Shown piece after piece: positions 13,684-29,021 of a DNA stretch of 64,000 nucleotides. The translations under genes and the position numbers were made by a program. The notes under the pieces were generated by a model. The model was not told the origin of the DNA. It searched no databases and was given only the letters and a program-made list of their open reading frames with translations. Origin of the DNA: Nitratireductor indicus C115 (lineage in GTDB: Bacteria; Pseudomonadota; Alphaproteobacteria; Rhizobiales; Rhizobiaceae); the NCBI RefSeq assembly GCF_000300515.1, contig NZ_AMSI01000004.1, positions 124,001-188,000 on the forward strand, in the 5' to 3' direction. Within the stretch, counting starts at the first letter, position 1, and each line of letters opens with the position of its first letter.

Positions 13684-13697
13684 GTTGCTCTTCTCGG

Positions 13698-14924: not shown

Positions 14925-14972
14925 CGTCACTCCTCCGAGACAGGTGTTGCTTCAGCGTCGTATTGCTATTAT

Positions 14973-14980
14973 GTATATAC
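14973..14980. promoter_or_regulatory. candidate HutC operator core
   Basis: GTATATAC is a perfect 8-bp palindrome in the hutI/hutF divergent promoter, in AT-rich context TTATGTATATACTTAA. HutC of pseudomonads binds a CTTGTATATACAAG-like site (known family behaviour), and the core is identical here although the flanks are not. HutC is encoded about 1.5 kb downstream of this site. Confidence 0.55.
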
Positions 14981-15033
14981 TTAATCAAAAATGGCGCAAG
15001 CCAAAAGTCCGATGAATTAGCCGGGAGGCCGCA

Positions 15034-16377
15034 ATGACAGTGATCCATGCCGAAAATGCCCTTCTGCCGGACGGCCTTGCCCATAAGGTTCGCGTCGTCT
15101 TTTCCGCGACTGGCATCGAAAGCGTGGAACGGGACGCAGCACCGCAGCCCGGCGATGAGCGTCACCGCTTCCTGCTGCCCGCCATGGCCAATCTGCACAG
15201 CCATGCGTTTCAACACGCCATGGCCGGTCTTGCCGAACGGCGCGGGCCCGGCGCAGACAGTTTCTGGAGCTGGCGCACGGAGATGTATCGCATCGCCCTG
15301 TCGATGGCGCCGGACCAGGTCGAGGCTGTCGCCGCCCATCTTTACATGGAGATGCTCGAAGCAGGTTTTTGCCGCGTCGGCGAATTTCATTATCTCCATC
15401 ACGACAGGGACGGCAGCTCCTATGCCGACCCTGCCGAGATGGCCGAACGCATAGGCGCAGCAAGCGCCCAAACGGGTATCGCACTGACCCTTCTTCCCGT
15501 TTTCTATGCGCATTCCGGGTTTGGAGGAGCAGAACCCGCTGACGGCCAGCGACGCTTCATTCACACGGTCGATGCCTTCGAAACGCTCATGGGACGTGCG
15601 CGCACTATCGTTGCAGCACTTCCCGGCGGCGTGCTTGGCGTTGCGCCGCACAGCCTGCGCGCCGTAACTGCGCAAGAGCTTGGCGAGGTGCTGCCGCTTG
15701 CCCAGGGAGGGCCGATCCACATTCATGTCGCCGAGCAAGTGAAGGAGGTGGAGGACTGTGTGGAATGGTCGGGATTGCGACCGGTGGAATGGCTGTTCGA
15801 GCATGCCGCTCCCGACGCACGCTGGTGCCTGATCCATGCCACGCACATGACCGATGCCGAGACCACCCGCATGGCGCGCAGCGGCGCCATCGCCGGCCTT
15901 TGCCCTATCACCGAAGCCAATCTGGGCGACGGGGTGTTCCCGGCCCCCGCATTTCTGGAAGCCGGCGGCGCATTCGGCGTCGGCTCAGACAGCAACATCC
16001 TGATCTCGCTGACCGAGGAACTGAGAACGCTGGAATATTCGCAACGGCTCTTGCGCCGCGCGCGCAATGTCGTGGCCGAACCCGGTCAATCGACGGGGAC
16101 AAACCTGTTCCAGCGCACCACGACAGGTGGCGCACAGGCACTGGGAAGCGTGAGCGGCATTGCGGCCGGCCATCCCGCCGATCTGATTACGCTCGATCTC
16201 ACGTCGGTTGACTATCTGCCTGGGGAACGCGTCCTCGATCACTTCATCTTCGCGAAGGGCATTGGCGTGGATAGCGTCTGGGTCAGCGGTAGCAAGAAAG
16301 TGGAAGGCGGGCGGCATCGCAACCGTTCAGTCATCGTGGAGCAGTTTTCCCGAGCCATGAAGGCGCTTGCCGGATAA
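15034..16377 (+). CDS. hutF: N-formimidoylglutamate deiminase
   Basis: A 447-residue amidohydrolase that converts formimidoylglutamate to N-formylglutamate and ammonia. Metal ligands sit in NLHSHAFQHAM, VAPHSLRAV, HATHMTDAE and the final GSDSNILIS aspartate. GGGAGG lies 8 bases before the ATG at 15034. It is transcribed away from hutI; hutC follows after about 125 bases and is probably co-transcribed. Confidence 0.96.
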   Translation: MTVIHAENALLPDGLAHKVRVVFSATGIESVERDAAPQPGDERHRFLLPAMANLHSHAFQHAMAGLAERRGPGADSFWSWRTEMYRIALSMAPDQVEAVAAHLYMEMLEAGFCRVGEFHYLHHDRDGSSYADPAEMAERIGAASAQTGIALTLLPVFYAHSGFGGAEPADGQRRFIHTVDAFETLMGRARTIVAALPGGVLGVAPHSLRAVTAQELGEVLPLAQGGPIHIHVAEQVKEVEDCVEWSGLRPVEWLFEHAAPDARWCLIHATHMTDAETTRMARSGAIAGLCPITEANLGDGVFPAPAFLEAGGAFGVGSDSNILISLTEELRTLEYSQRLLRRARNVVAEPGQSTGTNLFQRTTTGGAQALGSVSGIAAGHPADLITLDLTSVDYLPGERVLDHFIFAKGIGVDSVWVSGSKKVEGGRHRNRSVIVEQFSRAMKALAG

Positions 16378-16501
16378 GGGGCTATTGCCGGTGTTGAGCG
16401 CCAACCGCTGGCAGATTTGCCGTTGCCATACAGGGGCGAGACTTTCCACCCGGCTGCAAAATACCGTAGTGAATGCTGGGCAGAGGAAGAATCGGGATCA
16501 C

Positions 16502-17236
16502 GTGGCGAACCGCAGCGGCAAGGAAGCAACCCTCCATCAAACGATCCTGAGCGAGATCGAAGGGCGCATCGTATCTGGCGAATGGGCGCCCGGTTTCCGC
16601 CTCCCCTTCGAAATGGAACTGGCGGAACAGTATGGCTGTTCCCGCATGACCGTGAACAAGGTCATGACCCAGCTTGCCAATGCGGGTCTGATCGAGCGGC
16701 ACCGCAAGGCGGGCAGCTTCGTGCGCCGCCCGCATGCACAATCCGCCGTCATGGAGATCCACGACATCGAGGTCGAGGTGAACTCGCTTGGCCTTCCCTA
16801 TGCCTACAAGCTTCTTGCCCAAAGGAAACGCAAGGCGAACGCCGAAGACAAGAGCCTCATGAGCCTGCCTGCGGCAACACCGGTCATGGAATTGCTTGCG
16901 GTTCACCGGGCTGGCCGCAGACCCTTCTGCGTCGAGGAACGCCGTATCAATGCCCGCGCGGTGCCCGAGGCGGCGGAAGCCGACTTTTCGCAAACGCCGC
17001 CGGGTCAGTGGCTGATCGCACAAGTGCCGTGGAGCACGGCCGAAAACCGCATTCAGGCTGTTGCGGCCTCTCCCGAAATAGCGCGGCACCTCGACGTGCC
17101 GGAAGGCACCGCCTGCCTGTCCATCGAGCGGCGCACCTGGAGCCCCGCCGAAACAATCACCTTCGTACGGCTGACCTATCCCGGCGACGCCCACACACTG
17201 GTTGCCCGTTTCAAGCCCGCCCAGGGAACGGCCTGA
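16502..17236 (+). CDS. hutC: histidine-utilisation repressor, GntR/UTRA family
   Basis: About 244 residues from GTG at 16502. The frame is open back to 16367, but that overlaps hutF and adds an unconserved tail. The winged helix (GEWAPGFRLPFEMELAEQYGC, SRMTVNKVMTQLANAGLIER) and the UTRA domain (DFSQTPPGQWL, ENRIQAV) match HutC. It represses hut genes until urocanate binds (family knowledge). It is the second GntR/UTRA regulator in the window. It shares only the family fold with the one at 2,781, although the DFSQ(T/N)P motif is in both. Confidence 0.92.
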   Translation: MANRSGKEATLHQTILSEIEGRIVSGEWAPGFRLPFEMELAEQYGCSRMTVNKVMTQLANAGLIERHRKAGSFVRRPHAQSAVMEIHDIEVEVNSLGLPYAYKLLAQRKRKANAEDKSLMSLPAATPVMELLAVHRAGRRPFCVEERRINARAVPEAAEADFSQTPPGQWLIAQVPWSTAENRIQAVAASPEIARHLDVPEGTACLSIERRTWSPAETITFVRLTYPGDAHTLVARFKPAQGTA

Positions 17237-17268
17237 ACCGCTCCAGAGATATATGGAGGATGCCAAAC

Positions 17269-17799
17269 ATGCAGGAAGCTGCTCCCCCTCAACTCGATCT
17301 CGACGGTGAAATCTGGCGTTTCGCACTCGAATTCTACGGTGCGTCCGGCGTTTCGGAAACCTGCCTGCGCCTGCAGGATGAAGCCGGCCTCGATGTCGTC
17401 GCGGCGATCGTCATTCTTTACGCTGAAGCAAAACTTCACCGGCGCCTGACCGCCGGTCAGGTGCAGCAACTGCAATCCGATATGAAGAGCTGGCGCGATG
17501 AAACCGTGCTTCCCTTGCGCGATCTGCGCCGGCGCCTGAAAGCACCGCCTTCCAGTTTTCCAGCCGCTGAAACGGAAGGCCTGCGCAATCTGATCAAGAA
17601 AGCCGAATTGCGTTCCGAGCAAATTCAGCTTGCCATGGGCGAACACTGGCTCGCCACCCTTCCCGCCCTGGAAGGACTGGCCGTGGAAGCTGCGCTTGGC
17701 CTGCTTCTCAACCCATCATCCGGCACCCTGCCGGACGATGCCACGACACTGATCGAACACCTGGTGAAGGCAGCCACGAAAGCAGCCTCAGGCAGCTGA
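17269..17799 (+). CDS. TIGR02444-family (DUF2390) protein
   Basis: About 176 residues. I chose ATG 17269, which has GGAGGA 8 bases upstream; ATG at 17260 overlaps that site. The sequence LDGEIWRFALEFYGASGVSETCLRLQDEAGLDVV is characteristic of TIGR02444 proteins, whose function is not established. It is soluble, helical and rich in Leu and Ala, with no signal peptide. It follows hutC by 32 bases, so it may be co-transcribed with hutF-hutC, and converges on the dCMP-deaminase-like gene 8 bases away with no visible terminator. Confidence 0.8.
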   Translation: MQEAAPPQLDLDGEIWRFALEFYGASGVSETCLRLQDEAGLDVVAAIVILYAEAKLHRRLTAGQVQQLQSDMKSWRDETVLPLRDLRRRLKAPPSSFPAAETEGLRNLIKKAELRSEQIQLAMGEHWLATLPALEGLAVEAALGLLLNPSSGTLPDDATTLIEHLVKAATKAASGS

Positions 17800-17807
17800 C
17801 GCCGCCG

Positions 17808-18284
17808 CTATCGCTCTTGAGCCGATACGGAGACACCCGCCTCGCGAAGCATGATCTCCGATACATCGAAGCTGTGATCGAGCTTGCCGTCATTCTCAGG
17901 CTTCGGCGGGCATTCGACACAGGCAATGCCCGACTGGATGATAGCGCGCGCGCAATCCGCGCAGGGAAACCGGTTCACGTAGAGCGTGCATCCGGCCAAT
18001 GCGGCGCCGGACCGCGCCGCATTGTAGATGGCGTTGCGCTCGGCATGCTCGATCCAGAAGAACTTTTCGCCGCTCGCCCGGTCGAAACGGCGATCATCGC
18101 CGGACGAAACCCCGCGCGGCAGGCCATTATAGCCCGTCGCGCGGATCTCGTGCCCCGGCCCGACGACCACGGCTCCAACCTTGAAGTCGCGATCTTCGGA
18201 CCAGCCGGAAACCTGGTCGCACAGCCCCAGAAAACGATGGCGCCATCCCTCGTTGCCCGATGCCTTGTCGATCATCGCCGTCAT
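17808..18284 (-). CDS. CMP/dCMP deaminase-family zinc protein
   Basis: A 158-residue cytidine-deaminase-fold protein with H80-A81-E82 (WIEHAERNAI) and PCADC (C108, C111) as zinc ligands and proton shuttle. dCMP deaminases have this layout, but this is the last gene of a catabolic operon, overlapping the upstream aldehyde dehydrogenase by 4 bases. It could therefore deaminate an amino-heterocycle intermediate rather than dCMP (inference). The family call is strong; the substrate is open. Confidence 0.85.
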   Translation of the reverse strand: MTAMIDKASGNEGWRHRFLGLCDQVSGWSEDRDFKVGAVVVGPGHEIRATGYNGLPRGVSSGDDRRFDRASGEKFFWIEHAERNAIYNAARSGAALAGCTLYVNRFPCADCARAIIQSGIACVECPPKPENDGKLDHSFDVSEIMLREAGVSVSAQER

Positions 18285-19717
18285 CCTGCGAAGACGTAGG
18301 CGGTCTTGACCGTAGTGTAGAACTCCGCCGCATAGCGTCCCTGCTCGCGCGGTCCGAAGGACGACCCCTTGCGGCCGCCGAAAGGCACGTGAAAATCGAC
18401 GCCGGCCGTCGGAAGATTCACCATCACCATTCCGGCCTGGGATTTCCGCTTGAAGGTGCGTGCGGCTTTCAGGCTCGTCGTGCAGATGCCCGCCGAAAGG
18501 CCGAATTCCGTATCGTTTGCCACGGCCAGCGCCTCGTCGAAATCGCCAACCTTGATCACCGATCCGCAGGGGCCGAAGATTTCCTCACGGTTTATGCGCA
18601 TGGAATTGTTGGTGCCAAGGAAAAGGGCGGGAGCCTGAAAGAAGCCGTTCGTCGCAAGATCGAGCTGTTCGCCGCCGATCACCTCTGCCCCTTCTTTCCG
18701 GGCAAGCTCGACGTAGGAAAGGTTGGACTGAAGCTGCTTGCCATCGACCACCGGGCCGATCTGGGTTTCGGGAGCTAGCGCATCCCCCACCTTGAGGGCC
18801 CGCATGCCGGCGACCAGTTTTTCCACGAACGCATCGTGAATGCCCGCTTCGACGATCAGCCGCGAGGACGCGGTGCAGCGCTGGCCGGTGGAGAAGAACG
18901 TGCCGTTCAGACAGGCAGCGACCGCCACGTCGAGATCGGCATCGTTGAGCACGACCATCGGGTTCTTGCCACCCATCTCCAGCTGGCTTTTGCGCTTCAT
19001 GCGCCCGCAGACTTCGGCGATGTGGCTGCCGGTCGGCACCGACCCGGTGAATGAGAGGGCATCAATGTCGGGATGCGTGACGAGCGTTTCGCCCACCACC
19101 GAGCCGCGGCCCATCACTAGGTTGAACACGCCGGGTGGACAGCCGCATTCATCGAGCAGGCGCGCAATCACATGAGCGCAACCCGGCGTGAGATCGGCGG
19201 GCTTGAGAACGACGCAATTGCCGTAGGCAAGCGCCGGTGCCGTCTTCCAGGCGGGAATGGCAATCGGGAAATTCCAGGGGGTGATCAGGCCGACCACGCC
19301 GACCGGCTCGCGTGTAACCTCGACATCGATATCGGGGCGTACCGAAGCCTGCAGGTCGCCGGCGACCCTGAGCGCCTCGCCGGCAAAGAACTTGAACACC
19401 TGCGCGGCGCGCAGGGTCTCGCCAATGCCCTCGGCGAGCGTTTTGCCCTCCTCGCGCGACAGAAGCCGGCCGATTTCCTGCGAACGCTCGGCGAGCTTGC
19501 GGCCAACGGCCTCGAGCAGATCATGACGGGCCTGCGGGGTGGCATCAGCCCAGCCGGGAGCCGCGGCCTGCGCCGCCTCCACCGCCCTTTCCGCGTCGGC
19601 GGCGCTGCCCTGCGCATAAAGACCGATCACCTCGTCACGGTTCGACGGATTGCGGTTCTCGCCATAGGCGTCGGCGCTGACCCACTCACCGCCGATCAGG
19701 TTGTCGTGCTTGTCCAT
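18281..19717 (-). CDS. aldehyde dehydrogenase, 2,5-dioxovalerate (ketoglutarate semialdehyde) dehydrogenase-like
   Basis: 478 residues from ATG 19717, where GGAGGA lies 5 bases upstream (an open frame to 19735 is ignored). Active-site residues N149 (ITPWNFP), E247 (QLEMGGKNP) and C281 (GQRCTASS) are present. The overall sequence, including TAPALAYGNCVVLKPADLTPG, is close to the KGSADH group that oxidises 2-oxoglutarate semialdehyde to 2-oxoglutarate in sugar-acid and hydroxyproline pathways. Directly after a DapA-family gene, this recalls the deaminase/dehydratase plus KGSADH pair of those routes. Substrate assignment is inference. Confidence 0.85.
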   Translation of the reverse strand: MDKHDNLIGGEWVSADAYGENRNPSNRDEVIGLYAQGSAADAERAVEAAQAAAPGWADATPQARHDLLEAVGRKLAERSQEIGRLLSREEGKTLAEGIGETLRAAQVFKFFAGEALRVAGDLQASVRPDIDVEVTREPVGVVGLITPWNFPIAIPAWKTAPALAYGNCVVLKPADLTPGCAHVIARLLDECGCPPGVFNLVMGRGSVVGETLVTHPDIDALSFTGSVPTGSHIAEVCGRMKRKSQLEMGGKNPMVVLNDADLDVAVAACLNGTFFSTGQRCTASSRLIVEAGIHDAFVEKLVAGMRALKVGDALAPETQIGPVVDGKQLQSNLSYVELARKEGAEVIGGEQLDLATNGFFQAPALFLGTNNSMRINREEIFGPCGSVIKVGDFDEALAVANDTEFGLSAGICTTSLKAARTFKRKSQAGMVMVNLPTAGVDFHVPFGGRKGSSFGPREQGRYAAEFYTTVKTAYVFAG

Positions 19718-19731
19718 CTCGTTCCTCCAGT

Positions 19732-20595
19732 TCAAAGCTCTTCGGCGATGCGGTCGAGAGCATCACGCGAAGCATTGCCGAGCGCCGCGAAAGGCGGAAG
19801 GACACGGCTCCATGCGGCATCGCCGGAGCGCTTGCCGACCAGATATTTTACGGCCGGAACGAGCGGGTGCGCCGCGATGTCGGATCGCAACCCGGCGATC
19901 CGTGCGGCAAGGCCGTCCCTGTCTCCCTCAACCATGAGGCTGGCGCAGAGCGGCGCACTGACATTCACCGTCGCGGAAATACATCCCGCGAAGCCCGCTT
20001 CGTCGGCCTGCGCCAATGCCGTTTCGGAACTGGGGAAGACCTTCAGGCCCGGCACGGTTTCGACAAGCTTTCGGCAATAGGCGAGATCGCCTGAGGAATC
20101 CTTGATACCGGTAAAGCGGCGTGGGTTAGCCTGCACCAACCGTGCAACCACGTCCACCGGAATAGGCACACCCGTCATCTGCGGGAAATTGTAGAAATAG
20201 ACTTCGATCGGCGTGTCGCCGAGAGCCTGGTCAAGTGCCTGATACCAGGCGACAAGGCCGTCATCGCTTACCGGCTTGTAATAGAATGGCGGCAGAACGA
20301 GAGCCACCCGATACCCCAGCTCCGCTGCGGTGAGCGTCAGGTCGAGCGTATCCTCCAGCGCCGGCAGCCCGGTGCCTACCATCAGCTTGTCGGGGCCGAA
20401 CGCCTCCACCGCCCAGGCCATGACCTGCTTGCGTTGCGCCACCCCAAGCGAATTGGCTTCACCGGTGGTGCCCAGCACGTTCAGTGCATCGCAACCATTG
20501 GCCAGCGCCCAATCGCAATGTTCCAGAAAGGGCTCCTTCAGGGCCGCGCCATTCTCGTCCACCGGTGTCGGAACGGCAGCTACTATGCCTTTCAT
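19732..20595 (-). CDS. DapA-family (dihydrodipicolinate synthase/N-acetylneuraminate lyase) protein
   Basis: 287 residues, a class I Schiff-base TIM barrel. The GTTGEA motif is near residue 43, the catalytic tyrosine is in YFYNFPQMTGVP and the Schiff-base lysine in TGIKDSSGD. It probably cleaves, dehydrates or deaminates a 2-oxo acid rather than making lysine precursors, because it sits in a catabolic operon before a KGSADH-like dehydrogenase. It starts in a 4-bp overlap with the ferredoxin gene. Candidates are 5-dehydro-4-deoxyglucarate dehydratase-like, hydroxyproline-route deaminase-like or 2-keto-acid aldolase; sequence alone does not decide. Confidence 0.85.
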   Translation of the reverse strand: MKGIVAAVPTPVDENGAALKEPFLEHCDWALANGCDALNVLGTTGEANSLGVAQRKQVMAWAVEAFGPDKLMVGTGLPALEDTLDLTLTAAELGYRVALVLPPFYYKPVSDDGLVAWYQALDQALGDTPIEVYFYNFPQMTGVPIPVDVVARLVQANPRRFTGIKDSSGDLAYCRKLVETVPGLKVFPSSETALAQADEAGFAGCISATVNVSAPLCASLMVEGDRDGLAARIAGLRSDIAAHPLVPAVKYLVGKRSGDAAWSRVLPPFAALGNASRDALDRIAEEL

Positions 20596-20939
20596 GATAT
20601 TTTTTCCTCGACTGTTCTTCTTGGGAAATCGCGCACTACGGGATGATCCTTAATCGGTGCGTCGCCGCGGCGCCATCCGCCAGGTTCAATGAGTTTTCCG
20701 TCCAGATCGTAAAAGACGTCATTGTTGATGCCGATAAATGCCTCGTCCGCCCCGCTCACCTCGTCGGCGTAGCGGATCGCATCGACGGGGCAGATGCTTT
20801 CGCACATGCCGCATTCGATACATTCCACCGGGTGGATGTAAAACATCCGCTCGCCTTCATAGATGCAGTCGACAGGGCAGCTTGTGGTGCAGATGCCATC
20901 CTTGATGTCGATGCATTCGCTCTTGATGATCAGAGGCAT
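20592..20939 (-). CDS. ferredoxin with two iron-sulfur cluster motifs
   Basis: 115 residues. Cysteines C9, C17, C21 and C25 (first motif, with a long C9-C17 gap) and C40, C43, C46, C50 (CIECGMCESICPVDAI) give two clusters, as in 7Fe/8Fe ferredoxins (FdxA-like). A 60-residue acidic C-terminal tail follows. It lies between an enoyl-CoA hydratase and a DapA-family gene, overlapping the latter. It probably carries electrons to or from the FAD oxidoreductase encoded four genes upstream in the same operon (inference). Confidence 0.88.
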   Translation of the reverse strand: MPLIIKSECIDIKDGICTTSCPVDCIYEGERMFYIHPVECIECGMCESICPVDAIRYADEVSGADEAFIGINNDVFYDLDGKLIEPGGWRRGDAPIKDHPVVRDFPRRTVEEKIS

Positions 20940-20945
20940 TGCACC

Positions 20946-21722
20946 TCACTTTCCCTGCCAGACGGGAGCCCGTTTCTCGCGGAAGGCACGCACGCCCTCA
21001 TCCTGATCTTCCGACAGAAGTGCGGCGGTCAGCTCCGGCGTCTGGAGCGCGCGCGCCTCACGAGGCGAAAGGTGCGCTGTCTTTCGCAGCGTCGCCTTGA
21101 TCGCCTTTGTCGAAAGGGGCGCGCAAGCCAGGATGTCGGCCACCCATGCATCCACTTCCGCATCCAACGCCTCGGCAGGCACGACCGCGTTCGCAAGGCC
21201 GCAAGCGGCAGCCTCGGCCGCACTCATCATCCGGCCCGTCAACATCAACCCGGCAGCGATATTGCGCGGCACGAGCCGCTGCAGCGCGACCATGCCGCCA
21301 TCGAGCGGCAGCCGCCCCACCTTTGCCTCGGGCAGCCCGAACCGCGCCGTGTCGGCAGCGATGACGATATCGCAGCCCAGCACCATCTCCAGACCGCCGC
21401 CCAGCGCCAGCCCGTTGACCCGCGCGATGACCGGCACCGCCAGGCTCTCACGCAATGCGATGCCGCCGAAGCCATTCGGATTCTGCCGCGCCCAATATTC
21501 GAGCCCGGAAAGCCCGGATCCGGATTTGAGGTCGGCGCCCGCCGAAAAGGCGCGCTCTCCCGCCCCGGTCAGCACGACGCAGCGGATGCGCTCGTCCTTT
21601 TCGATCTTCTGCCAGATCGCTTCCAGAGCCCTTTCCGTCTCGGCGTCGACAGCGTTCATGCGCTCCGGCCGGTCGATGGTTACCCGCGCCAGATGGCCAT
21701 CGATGTCGAAACATACACTCAT
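20946..21722 (-). CDS. enoyl-CoA hydratase/isomerase family protein
   Basis: 258 residues of the crotonase fold. The oxyanion-hole segments are GERAFSAGADLKSG near residue 56 and the NGLALGGGLEMVLGCD region near residue 100, followed by LGLPEAK-like sequence. It acts on a CoA thioester made by the CoA transferase encoded just upstream, whose stop it overlaps by 4 bases. Hydration, isomerisation or retro-Claisen cleavage are all possible in this family. Confidence 0.88.
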   Translation of the reverse strand: MSVCFDIDGHLARVTIDRPERMNAVDAETERALEAIWQKIEKDERIRCVVLTGAGERAFSAGADLKSGSGLSGLEYWARQNPNGFGGIALRESLAVPVIARVNGLALGGGLEMVLGCDIVIAADTARFGLPEAKVGRLPLDGGMVALQRLVPRNIAAGLMLTGRMMSAAEAAACGLANAVVPAEALDAEVDAWVADILACAPLSTKAIKATLRKTAHLSPREARALQTPELTAALLSEDQDEGVRAFREKRAPVWQGK

Positions 21723-22900
21723 TCCGCTGCCCTCGCCGCTTGTTGCAGGCCGAATTCATCGATCACCTCGCGGGTGTGCTCGCCAAGGCGCGGCGGCGCA
21801 TGACGCAGCACCAGCGGAGCATCACTCAGATGCACCGGCGAGCCGATGACCCTGAGCGGCCCGAGCACGGGGTGATCGAAGTCGAGCAACATGCCGTTGA
21901 TCGCGGTCTGCGGATCGTCGAGCGCTTCGCCCAGCGCACGCACCGGCGCGCAAAGCAAATCCTGTTCCTCAAGACGCGCGATCCAGTGAGCGGTCGTATC
22001 GGTGGCGAAGACCTCGCGGAAACGACCTTGCAGATAGGGCTTACTGGCGCGCTGGCTGGCCAGGTCGGGATACTCGCCCGACAGATCCTCGATACCGAGC
22101 GCTGTGCATATGTCACGCAGGGGATTTGCCTTGAATGCCCCGACCACGACCAGAGCCCCGTCCGTTGTGTCGAACACGCCGGTGAGCGGCATGGCGGCCC
22201 AGTTCAGCACCTCGCGGTGCTTGCTCCACTGCGCGGCCTCCTGCATCTGCATGGCGATCATGGAATCGTAAAGCGAAACGGAAACCTTCTGGCCATGGCC
22301 CGTCTTTTCACGCGCCAGGAGTGCCGCAAGAACGCCCTGCACCAGATGCATGCCGGCGGTGTAATCGCACAGCGTCGTGGGATAGATGGAGCGCGGAATG
22401 GACGGGTCGGCCGTCTTTTCCATGACGCCGCTCATCGCCTGGGCAAGCACGTCCTGCCCCCCCTTGTGGGCATAGGGGCCCTTTTCGCCGAACCCCGTGC
22501 CCGACGCGCAGATGATGCGCGGGTTGATCGTCTTCAGTGTCTCATAGCCGAAGCCGAGCCGATCCATGACGCCGGCGCGGAAATTGTCGACCACCACATC
22601 GGCCTGGCGCACGAGATCATAGACCATCTGTTTGCCAATCGGGGACTTGGTATCGATTTCCATCGACCGCTTGTTGCGGTTGAGGGAGGAATAGACGGCG
22701 TTGTTCATGCCCTGCTCCGACCGCTGGTCGAAGAAATGGCGCGAGAGGTCGCCGGCGCCGGGCCGTTCGATCTTGATGACGTCGGCTCCGAAATCGGCAA
22801 GCATCTGCGTGGCGCAGGGGCCGAGCATGACCTGGGTGAAGTCCAGAATGCGGACTCCGGAAAGGGGAAGAGTATCGGTATTCACGTTGGTGTCCTTCAT
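21719..22900 (-). CDS. CaiB/BaiF-type (family III) CoA transferase
   Basis: 393 residues. The GVRILDFTQVMLGPCATQMLADFGADVIKIERPGAGD-type N-terminus (shown in part: LADFGADVIKIE) and the catalytic aspartate in TTLCDYTAGMHLVQG are clear. It activates a carboxylic acid by CoA transfer from an acyl-CoA donor. It overlaps the FAD oxidoreductase and the hydratase by 4 bases on either side, showing strict coupling of an oxidation, CoA activation and hydration sequence. Confidence 0.92.
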   Translation of the reverse strand: MKDTNVNTDTLPLSGVRILDFTQVMLGPCATQMLADFGADVIKIERPGAGDLSRHFFDQRSEQGMNNAVYSSLNRNKRSMEIDTKSPIGKQMVYDLVRQADVVVDNFRAGVMDRLGFGYETLKTINPRIICASGTGFGEKGPYAHKGGQDVLAQAMSGVMEKTADPSIPRSIYPTTLCDYTAGMHLVQGVLAALLAREKTGHGQKVSVSLYDSMIAMQMQEAAQWSKHREVLNWAAMPLTGVFDTTDGALVVVGAFKANPLRDICTALGIEDLSGEYPDLASQRASKPYLQGRFREVFATDTTAHWIARLEEQDLLCAPVRALGEALDDPQTAINGMLLDFDHPVLGPLRVIGSPVHLSDAPLVLRHAPPRLGEHTREVIDEFGLQQAARAAE

Positions 22901-24261
22901 TCGGCTGCGACGTTTTCAACGAGTGCATTGGCAGACGGAACGTCGCCCGGATCGGCGCCCTGCGCGCGCATGCGCTTCTGGATGGTCGCGACATCGGCAT
23001 CGCGCAGCGCGCAATTCTGTTCCAGCGCCACCGCAACGGCGACGCCGGCCGCCTCGCCCTGCGCCATGCAGGGCGGGATTTCGCGCGAAAGCTTCTGTGC
23101 CTCGCTCTCGACGGAATAGTGACGCCCCGCCACGATCAGGTTATCGACCCCCTTGGGCAGCAGCGCCCGCAGCGGCGTATAGTAGTCGCGGCCACGGCAT
23201 ACGCTGTCGGCGAAATGGCGGCGCGAGCGCACATCGTCGCGCGTGACCACATACTCGCCCTGTAGGAGCCGCGTCTGGCGAACGCCGATCTGTTCGGCAG
23301 CGCCCAGCATCTTGGCGTTCTCGAAGCCCGGCAGGTTGGCCCGCACGAAGGGCAGGAGGTTCATCATTCGCGAACGGCCTTCCACCTCGGCAGCCAGCAT
23401 GTCCTCCGGCGACAGCCCGTCATAGCCCGGCATATGCGGGCAATTGCACCACACGATGCCCGGCAGGGGCGTCTTCAGCCACCACATGCCCCAGGCCCCG
23501 CCGATGACCCGGCGCACCTGGCGGTCGAGCGCCTTGTATTCCTCGGGGTTCTCATATTCGAAGGCTTCCGCCCTGGCGGTATCGACGTCGCACAGGCGGA
23601 ACACCGTCGTGACGATATATTGCCCGGTCAGGAACGACGCGCCGGCCGAGGACGCGACGTCGAGATCGCCGCTGGCATCGATCACCATTTTGGCGCGGAT
23701 TGCCTGACGGCCAAGCTTGGTCTGGCAGATCACGCCGGTCACGCGGCCATCCTCCACCAGCGCCTCGGAGAACCAGGAATGAAGGCGCAGGTTCACTCCG
23801 GCCTCGCGCACGAGATCAAGACTGACCCGCTTCCAGCAATCCGGGTCGAAGGCAACGGCATGGATGATCGGCTGCGGAGTGCCGGTCTTGTGAAAGTCGA
23901 TGCACCCCCAGCGGGACCATTTCTTCCACATCTCCCAATTGGTCAAGCATTCCTGAGGTGGCGGGTAGACGGCGCCATCCTGCGCGGCCATGCGGTCGAC
24001 GAACTCGCTGACGATGCCGGTGGTGACAATCTCGTTGCCGTCATTGACCATGTCGTCGAGAACGAGAACCATTCCGCCCGACGCCATGCCACCGAGGTGA
24101 TGATAGCGTTCCAGAAGCGTGACGGAGCAGCCGTTGCGGGCTGCCGACACGGCTGCGCTCAGACCGGCCGGGCCGCCGCCCACAACCACGACGTCGCAAT
24201 CGGCGACGACCGGAATCTGCTCGCTGCGGTTCAAGGAAATATGCGTTGTGCTGGTGCTCAT
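22897..24261 (-). CDS. FAD-dependent oxidoreductase (FAD_oxidored family)
   Basis: 454 residues. The FAD motif VVVVGGGPAGLSAAVSAARNG is at about residues 24-44, preceded by a hydrophilic leader. Later DASGDLDVASSAGA and the C-terminal NLIVAGRHYSVESEAQ/PCMAQGEAAGVAVA segments are typical of the family. It is the first enzyme after the importer genes, separated from them by a 78-base gap that contains a GC-rich hairpin. The ferredoxin in the same operon may be its redox partner (inference). Substrate unknown. Confidence 0.85.
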   Translation of the reverse strand: MSTSTTHISLNRSEQIPVVADCDVVVVGGGPAGLSAAVSAARNGCSVTLLERYHHLGGMASGGMVLVLDDMVNDGNEIVTTGIVSEFVDRMAAQDGAVYPPPQECLTNWEMWKKWSRWGCIDFHKTGTPQPIIHAVAFDPDCWKRVSLDLVREAGVNLRLHSWFSEALVEDGRVTGVICQTKLGRQAIRAKMVIDASGDLDVASSAGASFLTGQYIVTTVFRLCDVDTARAEAFEYENPEEYKALDRQVRRVIGGAWGMWWLKTPLPGIVWCNCPHMPGYDGLSPEDMLAAEVEGRSRMMNLLPFVRANLPGFENAKMLGAAEQIGVRQTRLLQGEYVVTRDDVRSRRHFADSVCRGRDYYTPLRALLPKGVDNLIVAGRHYSVESEAQKLSREIPPCMAQGEAAGVAVAVALEQNCALRDADVATIQKRMRAQGADPGDVPSANALVENVAAE

Positions 24262-24281
24262 TTCGGCGCACTCCTCCCGTT

Positions 24282-24301
24282 GGGCCGCCTTGCAGCGGCC
24301 C
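24282..24301 (-). promoter_or_regulatory. intercistronic stem-loop between permease and FAD oxidoreductase genes
   Basis: GGGCCGC and GCGGCCC pair perfectly (7 bp) around the loop CTTGCA, in the gap between the last transporter gene and the first enzyme gene. No T-run follows on the coding strand, so partial termination or RNA processing and stability is more likely than full termination. Confidence 0.5.
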
Positions 24302-24339
24302 GGTTTCAGTTCGAATTGTCGCTTCTTCTCAGGCTGCGC

Positions 24340-25149
24340 TCACCACCGCACCACCAGCCGTTCGGCAATCGTCACCGCCGCAAACAACAGCACCGACAGG
24401 CCCGATGAGAGGAACACCGTGGCGTAGAGCAGGGCGGAACGGAAATTGAAGGTGGCATCGATGATCAACGCTCCCAGTCCAAGGTCCGCTCCCACCCATT
24501 CGCCGACGATGGCGCCGATGACGGATGTGGTGGCCGCGATCTTCAATGCCGAGAAAAGGAACGGCAGCGAGGACGGCAGGCGGATCTTCCAGAACACTTC
24601 CGACTTGGAAGCCGACAGAATGCGGGCGAGCTCGAGCGCCTGCGGACTGACGGCCTGCAGACCGCGCACCATGTTGACCAGCGTCGGAAAGAAGCAGATC
24701 AAGGCCGCGATCACCACTTTCGCCGTTAGTCCCGCGCCGAAGATCAGCACCAGGATCGGCGCAATGGCCAGGATCGGGATGGTGTTGATGAACACGGCAA
24801 TCGGAAAGAAGGCGCGTTCGGCCAGCCGGCTGTGCACGAAAGCAACCGCGATCAGAACCGCGGCCAGATTGCCCACGGCAAAGCCCATCAGGCTTTCATA
24901 GAGCGTCGGCCAGAAATTCCGCATGAGCTGCGGAAACTCCTCGACCAGGGTGGAGGCCACCGCGCTGGGGGTCGGCGCGATGTAATCGGGCACACCGAAC
25001 ACACGGACACCGGCTTCCCACAGAAAGATCAGCGTCGCGGCGGTCGCCACCGGCGTGGCAATCGCGACGAGGCGGTTTCTTCGTGCCGCCGCGATCTCGG
25101 CGGCTTCGTCGCTTGCAATGACATTCAGCGTATTTTCGACAGCGGTCAT
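24340..25149 (-). CDS. ABC importer permease, SsuC/TauC/NrtB type
   Basis: About 269 residues from ATG 25149, which overlaps the ATPase stop by one base (the open frame continues to 25365 inside the ATPase gene). Roughly six hydrophobic helices, and the EAA-loop region (LELARILSASKSEVFWKIRLPSSLPFLFSALKI, in part) that contacts the ATPase. It belongs to the nitrate/sulfonate/taurine/ThiX group, whose substrates are aliphatic sulfonates, nitrate, hydroxymethylpyrimidines or other small organics. Substrate not determined. Confidence 0.9.
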   Translation of the reverse strand: MTAVENTLNVIASDEAAEIAAARRNRLVAIATPVATAATLIFLWEAGVRVFGVPDYIAPTPSAVASTLVEEFPQLMRNFWPTLYESLMGFAVGNLAAVLIAVAFVHSRLAERAFFPIAVFINTIPILAIAPILVLIFGAGLTAKVVIAALICFFPTLVNMVRGLQAVSPQALELARILSASKSEVFWKIRLPSSLPFLFSALKIAATTSVIGAIVGEWVGADLGLGALIIDATFNFRSALLYATVFLSSGLSVLLFAAVTIAERLVVRW

Positions 25150-25946
25150 CAGCACGCCTCCAGCAGCCCGCGCAGATGCGCGGAGTAGCGAGTGAACTCT
25201 GGCGTATCGCGCTGCGCAATGCTGCGCGGATATGGCAGATCGATATCCACGATCTCGTGCAGCCGGCCCGGATGCGCCTTCAGCATCAGCACCTTCTGGC
25301 CCAGAAACACTGCTTCGGGGATCGAGTGGGTGACAAAGAGGATCGTCACCCCCGTCTCTTCCCACACCTTGAGAAGCTGCAGGTTGAGATGGTCCCTGGT
25401 CATCTCGTCGAGCGCACCGAACGGCTCATCCATAAGGAGCAGTTTCGGTTTGCACACCAGAGCGCGGGCAATCGCCACACGCTGGCGCATGCCGCCAGAA
25501 AGCTCGTGCGGCAACGCATGCTCCCGGCCTTTCAGCCCCACCAGTTCCAGAAGCTCCATCGGGCTCTTGTCGCTGACGGGAATGTCGATGCCGCGGCTAC
25601 GGCCGATTTCGAGCGGAAGCTCGACATTCTTCAACGCGCTGCGCCAGGGCAACAGCGTCGCATCCTGGAAAACGAAGGCGAATTCCCGCGCCAGGCGCGC
25701 GGCCTCCGTTGTCTTTCCGAAGACCGAGACCTCGCCCGCCGCCGGCGGAATGAGGTCCGACACCAGACGCAAAAGAGTCGACTTGCCGCAACCGGACGGG
25801 CCGAGGATGGAATAGAAAGCGCCTGCCTCTATCTCCAGGCTGATATCCTGGATGGCCGTGAACTGGCCGAACTTGACCCAGGCATTGCGCAGGCTCGCTG
25901 CAGGGACCTGGGTTCCTGCAGCTGCATTCAGGGAAACGGCGTCCAT
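25149..25946 (-). CDS. ABC importer ATPase, SsuB/TauB/NrtD type
   Basis: 265 residues with Walker A GPSGCGKST, the Q-loop in FVFQDATLLPW, signature LSGGMRQRVAIARAL and Walker B LLLMDEPFGALDE. It energises the adjacent SsuC-like permease. It begins 4 bases after the binding-protein stop and overlaps the permease start by one base. Confidence 0.93.
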   Translation of the reverse strand: MDAVSLNAAAGTQVPAASLRNAWVKFGQFTAIQDISLEIEAGAFYSILGPSGCGKSTLLRLVSDLIPPAAGEVSVFGKTTEAARLAREFAFVFQDATLLPWRSALKNVELPLEIGRSRGIDIPVSDKSPMELLELVGLKGREHALPHELSGGMRQRVAIARALVCKPKLLLMDEPFGALDEMTRDHLNLQLLKVWEETGVTILFVTHSIPEAVFLGQKVLMLKAHPGRLHEIVDIDLPYPRSIAQRDTPEFTRYSAHLRGLLEAC

Positions 25947-25950
25947 CGGA

Positions 25951-26994
25951 TCAACCGACCTTCGGGCGGACGTCGGCGGTCTTGTCCAGAATGTCCAGCG
26001 TCATGATATCGTCGACCGCCGGCGCACCCTTTGCGAACTGGCCGAGACCATCATAGGTGTCGATCTGTGCCTGCCAGTTCTCGCGGGTCATCACACCCCA
26101 GCCGCCAGCCTTCGTTTTTTCGCTGAATGAGTAACCGACGACGAGCGGCACGGCCTTGAGCTCGCTTTCCTTGTCCAGGTTCGGCAGGCGCTCGACCAGA
26201 TAGTCGACGGCCTGTTCCGGATTTTCGCGCACCCAGCCCCATCCCCGTGAGATGGCGCGGATCATCCCCTCAACCTTGTCGCCATGCTCGGCCAGCACGC
26301 CGTCCGTGGTGTAGAAGGGATTGGCATAAAGCTGGATGCCGGCATCCCACAGCGTCATGTCGACCCGCTCGTCGCCGAGCACTGAAAGCGCGTTGATGTT
26401 CGTCTTCCAGCCGGTGATAGCGTCCACCTGCCCGGTCATCAGCGGCGCCATATCGCTGCCGATCACCTTGAGCTCGACCTGATCTTCCGGAATGCCGTTC
26501 TTGGCCAGGAGCGCACGGAACAGGATGCGGCCGGTCGCCTGGGTGCCGATCGTCTTGCCGATCATATCCTGCGGCGTCCTGATCGGCTTCTTCTTGAGCG
26601 AGAAATATGTGTACGGGTGCTGCTGATAACCGACGGCGATGCACTTGATCGGAATGCCCGCCGAGCGCGCCAGAAGCAAGGAAGGGCTTGAGGAGACCTG
26701 TCCGAGATTGGAGCGGCCGGAGGCTACCGAGGCGACGCCATCGATATTGGGGCCGCCTGAAACGATTTCGAACTCCAGACCTTCGTCGGCAAAATATCCG
26801 AGCTTGTCGGCGGCGATCTCTCCGAGATTGCCGTTGCCGGCAAGCCAGCCGAGCTGCATCGAAACCTTGAACTTGTCCTGTGCGGTGGCGCGCGAAATGG
26901 TCACGAAGGTTCCCGTACCCGCCAGGCCGGCGGCAACGCCCATGGTCTTGAGGAGCGAGCGACGGCTCACGCCTTTGGAAATTGCATGTGACAT
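25951..26994 (-). CDS. periplasmic substrate-binding protein, SsuA/ThiY-like (NMT1 family), Tat signal
   Basis: About 347 residues from ATG 26994 (GGGAG 8 bases upstream); the open frame to a TTG at 27015 is not needed. A twin-arginine leader (VSRRSLLKTMGVAAGLAG) precedes an AxA-type cleavage site near TISRATAQ. The mature part is the NMT1/SsuA fold. First gene of the long catabolic operon and divergent from a LysR gene. ThiY-like members bind pyrimidines and SsuA members bind sulfonates; which applies here is unknown. Confidence 0.9.
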   Translation of the reverse strand: MSHAISKGVSRRSLLKTMGVAAGLAGTGTFVTISRATAQDKFKVSMQLGWLAGNGNLGEIAADKLGYFADEGLEFEIVSGGPNIDGVASVASGRSNLGQVSSSPSLLLARSAGIPIKCIAVGYQQHPYTYFSLKKKPIRTPQDMIGKTIGTQATGRILFRALLAKNGIPEDQVELKVIGSDMAPLMTGQVDAITGWKTNINALSVLGDERVDMTLWDAGIQLYANPFYTTDGVLAEHGDKVEGMIRAISRGWGWVRENPEQAVDYLVERLPNLDKESELKAVPLVVGYSFSEKTKAGGWGVMTRENWQAQIDTYDGLGQFAKGAPAVDDIMTLDILDKTADVRPKVG

Positions 26995-27084
26995 ATGCTG
27001 GTCTCCCGGTTCCAACGATTGTGGTGATGGGCCGGCTGTTCCCCTTGCCGGCTTCCATTACGAACAGTAGAAGGGACTTGGCCG

Positions 27085-27152: not shown

Positions 27153-28058
27153 GTGCATTCCAACTTCCTGCGCTACTTCGACGAAGTCGCCCGGCAAGGC
27201 TCGATCCGCAAGGCTTCGGCGATCCTCAACGTCTCCTCGACAACGGTCAACCGCAAGATCATCAGCACCGAAAACGAGATGGGTGTGCGCCTGTTCGAGC
27301 GGACGCCCGAAGGCGTGACGCTCACCGATGCCGGCGCTATCGTGCTCGAACATTGTCGCAAGACGCTGCACGATTATGAGCGCACGAGAACGCTTCTGGA
27401 CGATATTCGCGACCTGCGCGCCGGGCACCTGAATATCGCCGCCATCGATTCCGTGACCTATGGCCTGTTGCCGCGCATTCTCCTGAGCTTCAACAGCATC
27501 TATCCGGAGGTGACCTATTCGATCACCACGGCGCAACCCGACGAAATCATGCAGGCGGTCGCGGACGGCTTGGCCGACATCGGCATTACCTTCACCTTCG
27601 ATATGCATCCGGACGTGCGCGTCATCTCGGAGAAGACGGCCCCCATCGGCATCATCATGCGGCCCGACCATCCGTTCGCCGGGCGCGCCAACCTGACGAT
27701 AGCCGACATCGCCGGCCAGAAGATGGTACGCACGGTCGATGCCCGCGGCCGCAACTCCATCATCGACCAGGCGATTTCAGGCATGTCGTCCGCCCTGTCG
27801 ACCAATTGCTTCACGGACACACTTCATGTCGCCAAGCAGATGATCCTGGCCGGGCGCGGCCTCGGGCTCTATACGAAGATCGGCTTCTACGAGGACATCC
27901 AGCAGGGTACGCTGTGCTTCGTGCCTCTGATGCATGACGTGCTACTCAACCTGCGGATCGGCGTCGTCATGTCGGCTTCCTCGGGCATATCCCCACCCGA
28001 ACGCCTTCTTGGAAACGAAATCCGGCGCGCGCTGGCCGAGCTCCGGCTCGATTCTTAA
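27153..28058 (+). CDS. LysR-family transcriptional regulator
   Basis: 301 residues starting at GTG 27153 with GGAGG about 6 bases upstream. The N-terminal winged helix (FLRYFDEVARQGSIRKASAILN, STTVNRKI) is followed by a periplasmic-binding-protein-like effector domain from about residue 90. It is divergent from the SsuABC-type catabolic operon and probably activates it in response to the imported compound or a product (inference). The helix has STTVNRKI where many LysR proteins have S(P)AVSRQI. Confidence 0.92.
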   Translation: MHSNFLRYFDEVARQGSIRKASAILNVSSTTVNRKIISTENEMGVRLFERTPEGVTLTDAGAIVLEHCRKTLHDYERTRTLLDDIRDLRAGHLNIAAIDSVTYGLLPRILLSFNSIYPEVTYSITTAQPDEIMQAVADGLADIGITFTFDMHPDVRVISEKTAPIGIIMRPDHPFAGRANLTIADIAGQKMVRTVDARGRNSIIDQAISGMSSALSTNCFTDTLHVAKQMILAGRGLGLYTKIGFYEDIQQGTLCFVPLMHDVLLNLRIGVVMSASSGISPPERLLGNEIRRALAELRLDS

Positions 28059-28255: not shown

Positions 28256-29020
28256 CTAAACTCCACCCGACAGGACCATGACCTCGCCGGTCATGAAGCT
28301 GCAGGCATCCGAAGCAAGAAAGATCGCCGCCCCGGTCATCTCCGACGCTTCCCCGGCACGGCCCATCCAGTTCGCATTGTGGCAATAGGCGGCCCATGCC
28401 GCCGGATCGGCATTTTTTCGGTCGGCATTGCGATCCGTATCTATCAGCCCCGGCGCCAGTGTATTCAGCACAACGCCGGTGCCTGCATATTCACGCGCCT
28501 GGCTCTGGATGATGTTATGCTGGGCTGCCTTGGTCGCCGCGTAAGCCGTTACCACCGGCTTGGGTGCAATCTGATTGATCGACCCGATGTTCACCACCCT
28601 GCCCCAGCCCCTCCTGGCCATGCCCGGCAGACAGGCCTGCAGCATCTCGACCGTGGATCGGAGGTTCACGGCGAGCTGGAAATCGAGATCTTCCGATGTC
28701 AATCCGGCCAGGGACGCGTTCTTCTGGGCCGACGCATTTACAACCAGAATGTCGACAGGTCCTGCAACCGCCTCAGCCGCCGCGATCAGTCTTGCTCCGG
28801 CGCCAGGTTCCGAAAGATCCGACGCGACGGCGTCCGCCCGCGCGCCCTGCCCGCGAAGGCGCTCCGCCTCAGACTCCGCCCTGTCCTGCCGCGTACCGTG
28901 GATGACCACATGGGCCCCCGCCGCCGAAAGTCCTCCGGCTATGGCCGCTCCGATACCGCGGGTCGAACCGGTGACGAGTGCGACGCGGCCATCGAGCCCG
29001 AAGATATCGTTCAATGCCAT
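28256..29020 (-). CDS. short-chain dehydrogenase/reductase (SDR)
   Basis: 254 residues from ATG 29020, one base after the IclR-SMP30 stop. The cofactor motif TGSTRGIG is at residues 17-24, NAS near 95, and the catalytic S147, Y160 and K164 (YAATK) are present. In a cluster with aldose epimerase, lactonase, dehydratase, DgoK and DgoA it is a good candidate for the sugar (galactose or other aldose) dehydrogenase that makes the aldonolactone (inference). Last gene of a nine-gene leftward operon. Confidence 0.88.
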   Translation of the reverse strand: MALNDIFGLDGRVALVTGSTRGIGAAIAGGLSAAGAHVVIHGTRQDRAESEAERLRGQGARADAVASDLSEPGAGARLIAAAEAVAGPVDILVVNASAQKNASLAGLTSEDLDFQLAVNLRSTVEMLQACLPGMARRGWGRVVNIGSINQIAPKPVVTAYAATKAAQHNIIQSQAREYAGTGVVLNTLAPGLIDTDRNADRKNADPAAWAAYCHNANWMGRAGEASEMTGAAIFLASDACSFMTGEVMVLSGGV

Positions 29021-29021
29021 C

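Follow-up and report, generated by a model that had tools for sequence, protein, structure and literature searches.

Positions 17808–26994 of the window, the 64,000-nucleotide stretch of Nitratireductor indicus C115 that we analysed, raise the question of which compound is imported and degraded by a run of genes that combines an ABC importer with CoA-dependent enzymes, an aldehyde dehydrogenase and a deaminase. The initial annotation had described ten leftward genes, mostly overlapping or abutting, as a single catabolic operon with CoA-thioester chemistry, probably acting on a nitrogen heterocycle and ending at 2-oxoglutarate or succinate-level intermediates.

Layout and conservation of the operon

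The region contained ten open reading frames (Table 1), and the coordinates, the strand and the junctions all agreed with the earlier description. The nine junctions comprised five overlaps of 4 bases, one overlap of 1 base and three gaps (4, 6 and 78 bases); the overlap between the aldehyde dehydrogenase (ALDH) and DapA genes hinges on a TTG start, and using the next ATG instead leaves a short gap. The Pfam family assignment was borne out for each of the ten genes.

Table 1. Genes of the operon and its divergent regulator (positions in the window)
Feature	Coordinates	Strand	Family match and remarks
Aminohydrolase, 158 aa; CDA fold, dCMP-deaminase branch	17808–18284	−	PF00383, E 2.7e-20
Aldehyde dehydrogenase (ALDH), TTG start or ATG a few codons in	18281–19735	−	PF00171
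DapA-family lyase/aldolase	19732–20595	−	PF00701, E 1.9e-38
FdxA-like ferredoxin	20592–20939	−	Fer4
Enoyl-CoA hydratase/dehydratase (ECH)	20946–21722	−	PF00378, E 7e-55
Family III CoA-transferase, CaiB-like	21719–22900	−	PF02515, E 1.7e-110
FAD-dependent oxidoreductase	22897–24261	−	PF12831, E 1.8e-87
ABC permease	24340–25149	−	PF00528 (longer ORF 24340–25365 scanned)
ABC ATPase	25149–25946	−	PF00005
NMT1/THI5-type binding protein	25951–26994	−	PF09084, E 6.8e-48 (longer ORF 25951–27015 scanned)
Divergent LysR regulator	27153–28058	+	PF03466 and PF00126

We compared 80 relatives, 66 of which were fully flanked, with 42 control stretches at the same thresholds. Gene counts were taken from tblastn because the codon-usage ORF caller overlooks some genes, among them the permease and an SDR of the window. 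CaiB and ECH accompanied the flavoprotein in all 66 fully flanked relatives and were also present in 27 of 27 further loci, the ferredoxin was found in 62 of the 66, and each of the three importer genes in 60. A LysR homologue was likewise present in 60 of the 66, indicating that the regulator travels with the operon. The operon's gene order recurred in relatives. In the 42 control stretches none of the eleven proteins (the ten plus LysR) reached the thresholds. The operon is a conserved module, beyond chance, and its description as a single catabolic operon with CoA-thioester chemistry was supported. Counting against the main reading given below, an aminohydrolase was not seen at the thresholds used in 16 of the 66 fully flanked loci and a recognized DapA was absent from 16 of the 66, so that neither branch is universal.

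Two Falsigemmobacter loci carried an SSADH-like ALDH ahead of LysR. HUT genes adjoining the operon were taken as chance neighbours; across 100 loci there was no match over more than half of HutF or HutC.

Importer, CoA and redox core, and the DapA/ALDH branch

The importer had been called SsuABC-like, a label that the binding protein did not bear out: it is of the NMT1/THI5 type and reached 62.5 bits against the SsuA family model TIGR01728 (cut-off 163.5). Its best solved relatives by phmmer were the thiamin-bound 4nmy and the FAMP binder 3ix1, and Foldseek placed 3ix1, 4nmy and THI5 first, with taurine and sulfonate binders ranked after them; identity to the FAMP and thiamin binders in the Foldseek matches was only 22–23 %. 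Sequence and fold alike place the binding protein closest to proteins related to FAMP, thiamin and HMP. The permease and the ATPase matched SsuC, TauB/TauC and nitrate-transporter models, all below cut-off.

Within the core, residues E112 and E132 of ECH, which we take to be both catalytic glutamates, aligned with glutamates of carnitinyl-CoA dehydratase entries (phmmer, 3r0o and 3r9s), and two of its best solved relatives carry that name. The AlphaFold2 model of the flavoprotein (pLDDT 83.3) gave Foldseek matches at a TM score near 0.45 to the geranylgeranyl-reductase (GGR)-like 3oz2, to monooxygenases and to FixC (7koe_C), so that its predicted fold would belong to the GGR/FixC/monooxygenase group. 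With such neighbours the enzyme could oxidize or reduce, the FAD oxidation proposed for it earlier being one of the two possibilities. Matches to Thi4 and thiazole-synthase models were partial and confined to the Rossmann region. A distant flavoprotein relative (34 % identity), far outside the clade, adjoined aconitase X genes. The ferredoxin scored 107.6 bits against FdxA_Actino, below its cut-off of 125.

The lysine of GIKDSSG in the window DapA, presumably the Schiff-base lysine, was aligned in 10 of the 10 DapA-family proteins compared. Among the best 60 of 138 matches, this DapA was nearest to DHDPS, YagE and NAL entries, not to known dehydratases. The one Actinobacterial DapA tested (L096) had as its best match 3dz1, deposited as a dihydrodipicolinate synthase (E 2.6e-25); the next two places went to L-2-keto-3-deoxyarabonate dehydratases (E 9.3e-16 for the second match, 1.8e-15 for the third). 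For the window ALDH, the best match of 44 NCBIfam families was AlphKGSA_gudD (504.8 bits, cut-off 770), followed by 2,5-dioxovalerate dehydrogenase (504.4 bits, also below cut-off); it possibly acts on 2-oxoglutarate semialdehyde, a reading against which it counts that the protein lay under every curated cut-off among the matches listed. The one Actinobacterial ALDH tested (L094) had 2,5-dioxovalerate dehydrogenase on top, at 517.8 of 750 bits. With these caveats, DapA and ALDH point to a five-carbon fragment that would be drained through 2-oxoglutarate semialdehyde. The proposed end of the route at 2-oxoglutarate is plausible, favoured by the L096 DapA and L094 ALDH matches and weakened by the sub-cut-off score of the latter. 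An ALDH from another clade, near 3v4c/1eyy, occurred in 6 of the 80 loci.

Degradation of dipicolinate by reversed biosynthesis was rejected: the window DapA has QM at the position where DHDPS has GR in YNxPxxTG, and the aminohydrolase would be superfluous.

Aminohydrolases and nucleobase context

The deaminase contains H80-A-E82 and P107-C108..C111, residues that all 15 aligned proteins share and that we take, as HAE...PCxxC, to be the zinc motif. Its nearest solved proteins were mostly dCMP deaminases, and it fell below the cut-off of the curated ComEB model (50.5 bits, cut-off 219.45). An aminohydrolase was found at 77 of 108 loci, nine of which had themselves supplied the queries, and at none of the 42 controls. 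These enzymes belonged to three Pfam families (PF00383, PF01979 and PF00962) and six sequence groups, which swapped along the flavoprotein tree with 21 label changes, losses included, compared with a shuffled mean of 48.7. Given this recurrence and the replacement of one family by another, ring deamination is probably part of the pathway. CDA2, 41 % identical to the window deaminase, may be a divergent orthologue of it. At the AHS2 loci and at four of the five CDA2 loci, the aminohydrolase gene adjoined the binding protein and not the operon's end. These points, and the origin of the queries, count against the main reading given below.

Nucleobase or nucleoside genes adjoined the operon or lay near it in a few lineages. 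Such neighbours were found at 9 of 108 loci versus two weak matches in 42 controls, a difference that is not significant alone; the nine comprised four sources of the queries, four Silicimonas/Boseongicola kin and L082. The window's genome held three nucleoside hydrolases and no RutA above cut-off, indicating that ordinary nucleosides would use another route, which also counts against the main reading.

Proposed pathway and its alternatives

The nitrogen-heterocycle substrate suggested by the initial annotation was supported by the FAMP/thiamin/HMP neighbourhood of the binding protein and by the recurrent aminohydrolase. Tentatively, and at somewhat under an even chance, we propose that the operon imports a small conjugate, probably an anion, of an amino-substituted N-heterocycle (aminopyrimidine or aminopurine type, possibly nucleoside-like) and degrades it via CoA. 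The ThiY-like ABC importer would take the conjugate in, and CaiB would move CoA onto its carboxylate. The CaiD-like ECH would then dehydrate or hydrate the acyl-CoA, with a redox step by the FixC-like flavoprotein and the ferredoxin, whereby the ring would be split off; the aminohydrolase would deaminate the ring before or after its release. The DapA-type lyase would convert the five-carbon remainder to 2-oxoglutarate semialdehyde, which ALDH would take on to 2-oxoglutarate. We infer every substrate, the order of the steps and the redox direction.

A bolder proposal, which we hold to be very unlikely, is that the substrates are nucleoside 5′-carboxylates (riburonosyl or 2′-deoxyriburonosyl bases) or close analogues. 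CaiB would form the 5′-thioester and the CaiD-like crotonase would eliminate the 3′-OH, beta to it; collapse of the furanose would free the base and leave a C5 acid to be converted to 2-oxoglutarate semialdehyde and 2-oxoglutarate. The formula of the 2-deoxy sugar acid fits exactly (C5H8O5 minus H2O gives C5H6O4), and the aminohydrolase would match the base, the dCMP-type enzyme going with cytosine and the ADA-family enzyme with an adenine-type base. If true, this would be a glycosidase-free, CoA-dependent breakdown of nucleosides.

Three other explanations were weighed against the conjugate reading. An aromatic N-heterocyclic carboxylate of the pyrrole or pyridine type, first activated as a CoA thioester, then reductively dearomatized by the flavoprotein with the ferredoxin, and finally opened after hydration by ECH, would let CaiB, FAD, ferredoxin, ECH, DapA and ALDH form one line (by reasoning), with an end resembling hydroxyproline degradation, from pyrroline-4-hydroxy-2-carboxylate to 2-oxoglutarate. 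The GGR/FixC-like fold matches this, and the aconitase X linkage of the flavoprotein's distant relative would as well, but that relative lies far outside the clade and the recurrent aminohydrolase is left without a clear role; we consider this explanation unlikely. Degradation of thiamin or an HMP-type vitamin pyrimidine, in which the 4-amino group would be lost to the aminohydrolase and a pyrimidine or thiazole carboxylate would be the target of the CoA chemistry, agrees with the two nearest solved binding proteins and with the suitability of CDA-type enzymes for a 4-aminopyrimidine. However, identity to those binders is low, none of the ten genes had a thiamin enzyme family among its best matches, and HMP offers no obvious source for the 2-oxoglutarate-semialdehyde branch, so that we regard it as quite unlikely. 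The third explanation, a conventional importer of sulfonate, taurine or nitrate beside unrelated enzymes, would share the superfamily and the permease and ATPase matches described above, but both the SsuA score and the Foldseek ranking speak against it, and no sulfonate monooxygenase or taurine dioxygenase family was found among the ten genes; this is extremely improbable.

Two further candidates were rejected. Homarine lacks an exocyclic amine on which the aminohydrolase could act, and no paper among those listed by a literature search dealt with homarine degradation genes; for the breakdown of cytokinin side chains, a C5 chain with a branch is, by reasoning only, unsuited to DapA/KGSADH.

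Carnitine metabolism of Escherichia coli uses CaiB/CaiD with FixABCX, and the operon resembles it in the CoA-transferase III, the crotonase near carnitinyl-CoA dehydratase entries, the FixC-matching flavoprotein and the small ferredoxin. It differs by the aminohydrolase, the DapA/ALDH branch and the ThiY-like importer, and the FixA/FixB electron-transfer flavoprotein family was absent from the matches of the ten genes. ThiY-type (FAMP) and thiamin-precursor importers, the source of the nearest solved binding proteins, are matched here at the low identity given above, and here the importer is coupled to CoA-dependent catabolic genes instead of thiamin genes. The 2-keto-3-deoxypentonate and hydroxyproline routes reach 2-oxoglutarate via a DapA-type dehydratase or deaminase and KGSADH; the operon likewise has a lyase of the DapA family and, after it, a KGSADH-like ALDH, the L096 DapA being close to L-KDA dehydratase, but has a CoA-transferase and a crotonase instead of a racemase and a sugar-acid dehydratase, and neither proline racemase/epimerase nor sugar-acid dehydratase was among the family matches of its ten genes. 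Genes of the Rut pathway or of nucleoside salvage adjoin the operon in single lineages, outside the conserved module.

The earlier statement that no named pathway has this composition stood, in that we found no description in the literature, judged from search listings alone; a search with Rhizobium johnstonii 3841 locus tags (pRL1100xx, a form that we guessed) found no paper. To our knowledge, no route of this make-up has been assigned to a nitrogen-ring compound, and the ten-gene operon looks like an undescribed pathway. If the conjugate reading is right, a nitrogen-ring compound is consumed by a pathway of marine alphaproteobacteria, rhizobial plasmids and Actinobacteria, which is relevant to how dissolved organic nitrogen is turned over and to nutrition in the rhizosphere. 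Because other families replace the deaminase, the question of the substrate can be put directly to the test. The operon's distribution, which takes in these three groups, is scattered over marine, soil and plant-associated bacteria.

Organisation, recurrence and distribution of the operon

The coordinates and strand that the initial annotation assigned to the ten ORFs were borne out in the sequence, and profile matches confirmed their families, the importer subtype apart. The genes are as tightly packed as claimed, five of the nine junctions being 4-base overlaps and one a 1-base overlap, with gaps of 4, 6 and 78 bases at the others; the ALDH–DapA overlap holds only with a TTG start. The LysR gene runs in the opposite direction and starts 158 bases from the operon. 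On the other side, hutF and hutC are oriented convergently toward the last operon gene. Because the SDR ORF shares 170 bases with the IclR/SMP-30 ORF, its real start probably lies further inside.

Coordinates of features in the window and in relatives' loci
Sequence	Positions	Feature	Remark
Window	12148-17236	hutH, hutI, hutF, hutC (histidine-utilisation group)	each above an NCBIfam cut-off; adjoins the operon's last gene
Window	17254-17799	DUF2390 gene	between hutC and the last operon gene
Window	17808-26994	ten-gene operon	minus strand
Window	27153-28058	LysR gene	plus strand
Window	28256-29191	SDR ORF	
Window	29022-30803	IclR regulator and SMP-30/gluconolactonase domain	fused in one 593-aa ORF
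L064	814-4173	genes before the operon	Silicimonas
L107	3517-9853	distant flavoprotein relative and neighbours	
L122	19179-22542	genes beside the operon	Rhizobium jaguaris

Relatives were collected by searching genome contigs with the flavoprotein; from at least 590 matching stretches, at least 99 loci were confirmed, the best 80 of these were used, and 66 of the 80 were fully flanked (over 4.5 kb of sequence ahead of the flavoprotein and over 6.5 kb behind it). As controls, 42 stretches were taken, 20 from the window's own genome, 20 from the genomes of five relatives and two from the window itself, beyond the operon. Around most of the best 80 relatives, a divergent LysR gene is followed by those for SBP, ATPase, permease, FAD oxidoreductase, CaiB, ECH and ferredoxin, after which DapA, ALDH and deaminase come in variably complete form; the LysR gene lies behind ECH instead in the Limimaricola and Rhizobium types. 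This neighbourhood search, which the initial annotation had proposed as a check, recovered the gene set repeatedly: among fully flanked loci, CaiB and ECH were each present in 66/66, ferredoxin in 62/66, and each importer gene and LysR in 60/66, while at the same thresholds every operon protein, and LysR too, scored 0/42 in the controls. DapA was found in 47/66 (plus three with an Actinobacterial type), window-type ALDH in 36/66 (plus six with another clade) and an aminohydrolase in 50/66. A further 27 loci, from plasmids and other genomes, contained CaiB and ECH in all cases, ferredoxin in 22 and LysR in 25.

The distribution of the operon is patchy. Within the order, 13 of 397 genomes, one being that of the window, have the flavoprotein at E <= 1e-120; in a phylum sample the figure is 4 of 398 at E <= 1e-60 (the own genome, one protein 59% identical and two 36-37% identical). 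Plasmids carry it as well: 59 records out of 72,556 had the flavoprotein, including some from Rhizobium, Ensifer, Roseibium, Paracoccus, Arthrobacter and Rhodococcus. Agrobacterium salinitolerans (L138) has the operon on a 147-kb plasmid, in a region that also contains genes for an integrase and an IS3 transposase and is bordered by a gene annotated as a predicted tetracycline-resistance determinant. One contig (L078), assigned to a Kiritimatiellae MAG, has operon genes that share 73-79% identity with those of the window; since it is placed among alphaproteobacteria in the flavoprotein tree, misbinning or recent transfer is likely.

Aminohydrolases associated with the operon

Comparison with solved proteins placed the window deaminase in the dCMP-deaminase branch, and its zinc-motif residues were invariant in 15/15 aligned proteins. 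Loci without this type often have other aminohydrolases in its stead. Limimaricola (three of five loci), two further alphaproteobacteria, Rhizobium and Ensifer have an amidohydrolase, one gammaproteobacterial locus has a different amidohydrolase, and two of the six Actinobacterial rows encode a member of the adenosine-deaminase family; other Hyphomicrobiales show additional types of CDA and amidohydrolase. Some aminohydrolase was present in 77 of 108 loci as compared with 0 of 42 controls, the 108 including nine query sources, some short contigs and two entries (L058 and L139) with identical rows and contigs of equal length that appear to be one Roseibium contig.

On a flavoprotein tree of 107 rows, built by a quick method and labelled by aminohydrolase type (CDA1, the window type, 52; AHS1, 14; CDA2, 5; AHS2, 3; ADA, 2; AHS3, 1; none, 30), the label changed 21 times, the minimum possible being 6 and the shuffled mean 48.7. 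CDA2 shares 41% identity with CDA1 and could be a divergent orthologue of it; it is safe to state that the same place is filled by three Pfam families of aminohydrolase (PF00383, PF01979 and PF00962), which argues that the pathway includes deamination of an amino-substituted ring.

Importer, CoA and redox core, and proposed C5 end

The proposed SsuABC-like importer did not hold up, as the binding protein scored 62.5 bits against an SsuA cut-off of 163.5. Its best solved relatives by sequence were 4nmy and 3ix1, and its AlphaFold2 model (mean pLDDT 77.2) matched 3ix1 (FAMP-binding), 4nmy (thiamin-bound) and THI5 proteins ahead of any taurine or sulfonate binder. MFS transporter genes replace the importer in six loci (four Actinobacterial, two gammaproteobacterial), and two Actinobacterial plasmids likewise carry them.

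In CaiB, ECH, flavoprotein and ferredoxin the operon looks like the carnitine system (CaiB/CaiD/FixC/FixX), although it is without the FixA and FixB of that system. ECH retains both catalytic glutamates, its E112 and E132 aligning with those of entries that bear the name carnitinyl-CoA dehydratase. For the flavoprotein, which may catalyse an oxidation or a reduction, the model (pLDDT 83.3) gave modest fold matches (TM-scores of about 0.45) to a geranylgeranyl-reductase-like protein, flavin monooxygenases, halogenases and FixC. In locus L107, a distant flavoprotein relative (34%) stands beside genes for the aconitase X large and swivel parts, an IlvD/EDD dehydratase and an MFS transporter.

The initial annotation had the route apparently ending at 2-oxoglutarate or succinate-level intermediates, and the evidence on 2-oxoglutarate is divided. 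Of 44 families, 2-oxoglutarate-semialdehyde dehydrogenase models fitted the window ALDH best, yet below cut-off; the one Actinobacterial ALDH compared (L094) had 2,5-dioxovalerate dehydrogenase as its top family (517.8 against a cut-off of 750 bits). Six of 80 loci have an ALDH of another clade, the one compared being nearest to 3v4c and 1eyy, the clade to which other KGSADHs belong. For the sole Actinobacterial DapA compared (L096), the best match was 3dz1 (E 2.6e-25), whose deposited name is dihydrodipicolinate synthase; next came two dehydratases of L-2-keto-3-deoxyarabonate (E 9.3e-16 and 1.8e-15), the latter favouring the 2-oxoglutarate end. Against it, the window DapA was nearest, among the matches listed, to DHDPS, YagE and NAL entries, so by sequence it may be a pyruvate-yielding aldolase, counter to the 2-oxoglutarate-semialdehyde reading.

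Candidate substrate and neighbouring genes

The probable function of the operon is CoA-dependent breakdown of an anionic conjugate of an amino-heterocycle, in which the deaminase would serve a ring branch and DapA and ALDH a C5 branch. A nucleoside-like acid would account for all the genes, because a thioester at C5' would make the 3'-OH a beta-hydroxyl, a target for a CaiD-like enzyme, and loss of water from a 2-deoxy sugar acid gives, as chemistry on paper, the formula of 2-oxoglutarate semialdehyde. Nucleoside oxidases make such acids. As for the statement that no named pathway has this composition, none of the papers listed by full-text searches of the open-licence literature dealt with this gene set.

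Genes of nucleobase or nucleoside metabolism adjoin the operon, or lie close to it, in a few lineages. In five Silicimonas/Boseongicola loci the deaminase gene is followed by those for xanthine dehydrogenase (in L069 both subunits score above cut-off; the remaining four have homologues). In Rhizobium sp. ACO-34A the annotation gives pyrimidine utilisation proteins A-D, malonic semialdehyde reductase and FMN reductase, with RutA scoring 684.1 against a cut-off of 498.3. R. jaguaris carries a gene resembling adenine deaminase (351.6 against 472.5) and one for a BMP-type transporter. A nucleoside hydrolase occurs with ABC permeases and an amidohydrolase in one genome (G783), and a 38% nucleoside-hydrolase match lies close to a contig end in L082. 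Such neighbours, found in 9 of 108 loci (four of them query sources) as compared with two weak matches in 42 controls, are suggestive but not proof. In the window's genome, a profile search found no RutA above cut-off; three nucleoside hydrolases and one D-hydantoinase-family gene exceeded theirs.

Other genes adjoin the operon in single loci. In R. jaguaris (L122), genes for a GMC oxidoreductase, an SDR and a second DapA-family protein are grouped beside it, the SDR being similar to that of an Actinobacterial DapA and SDR pair. In a Silicimonas locus (L064), it is preceded by genes for a phosphonoacetaldehyde dehydrogenase (735.5 bits against a cut-off of 635.65) and an MtgC-like corrinoid protein (197.3 against 370 bits).
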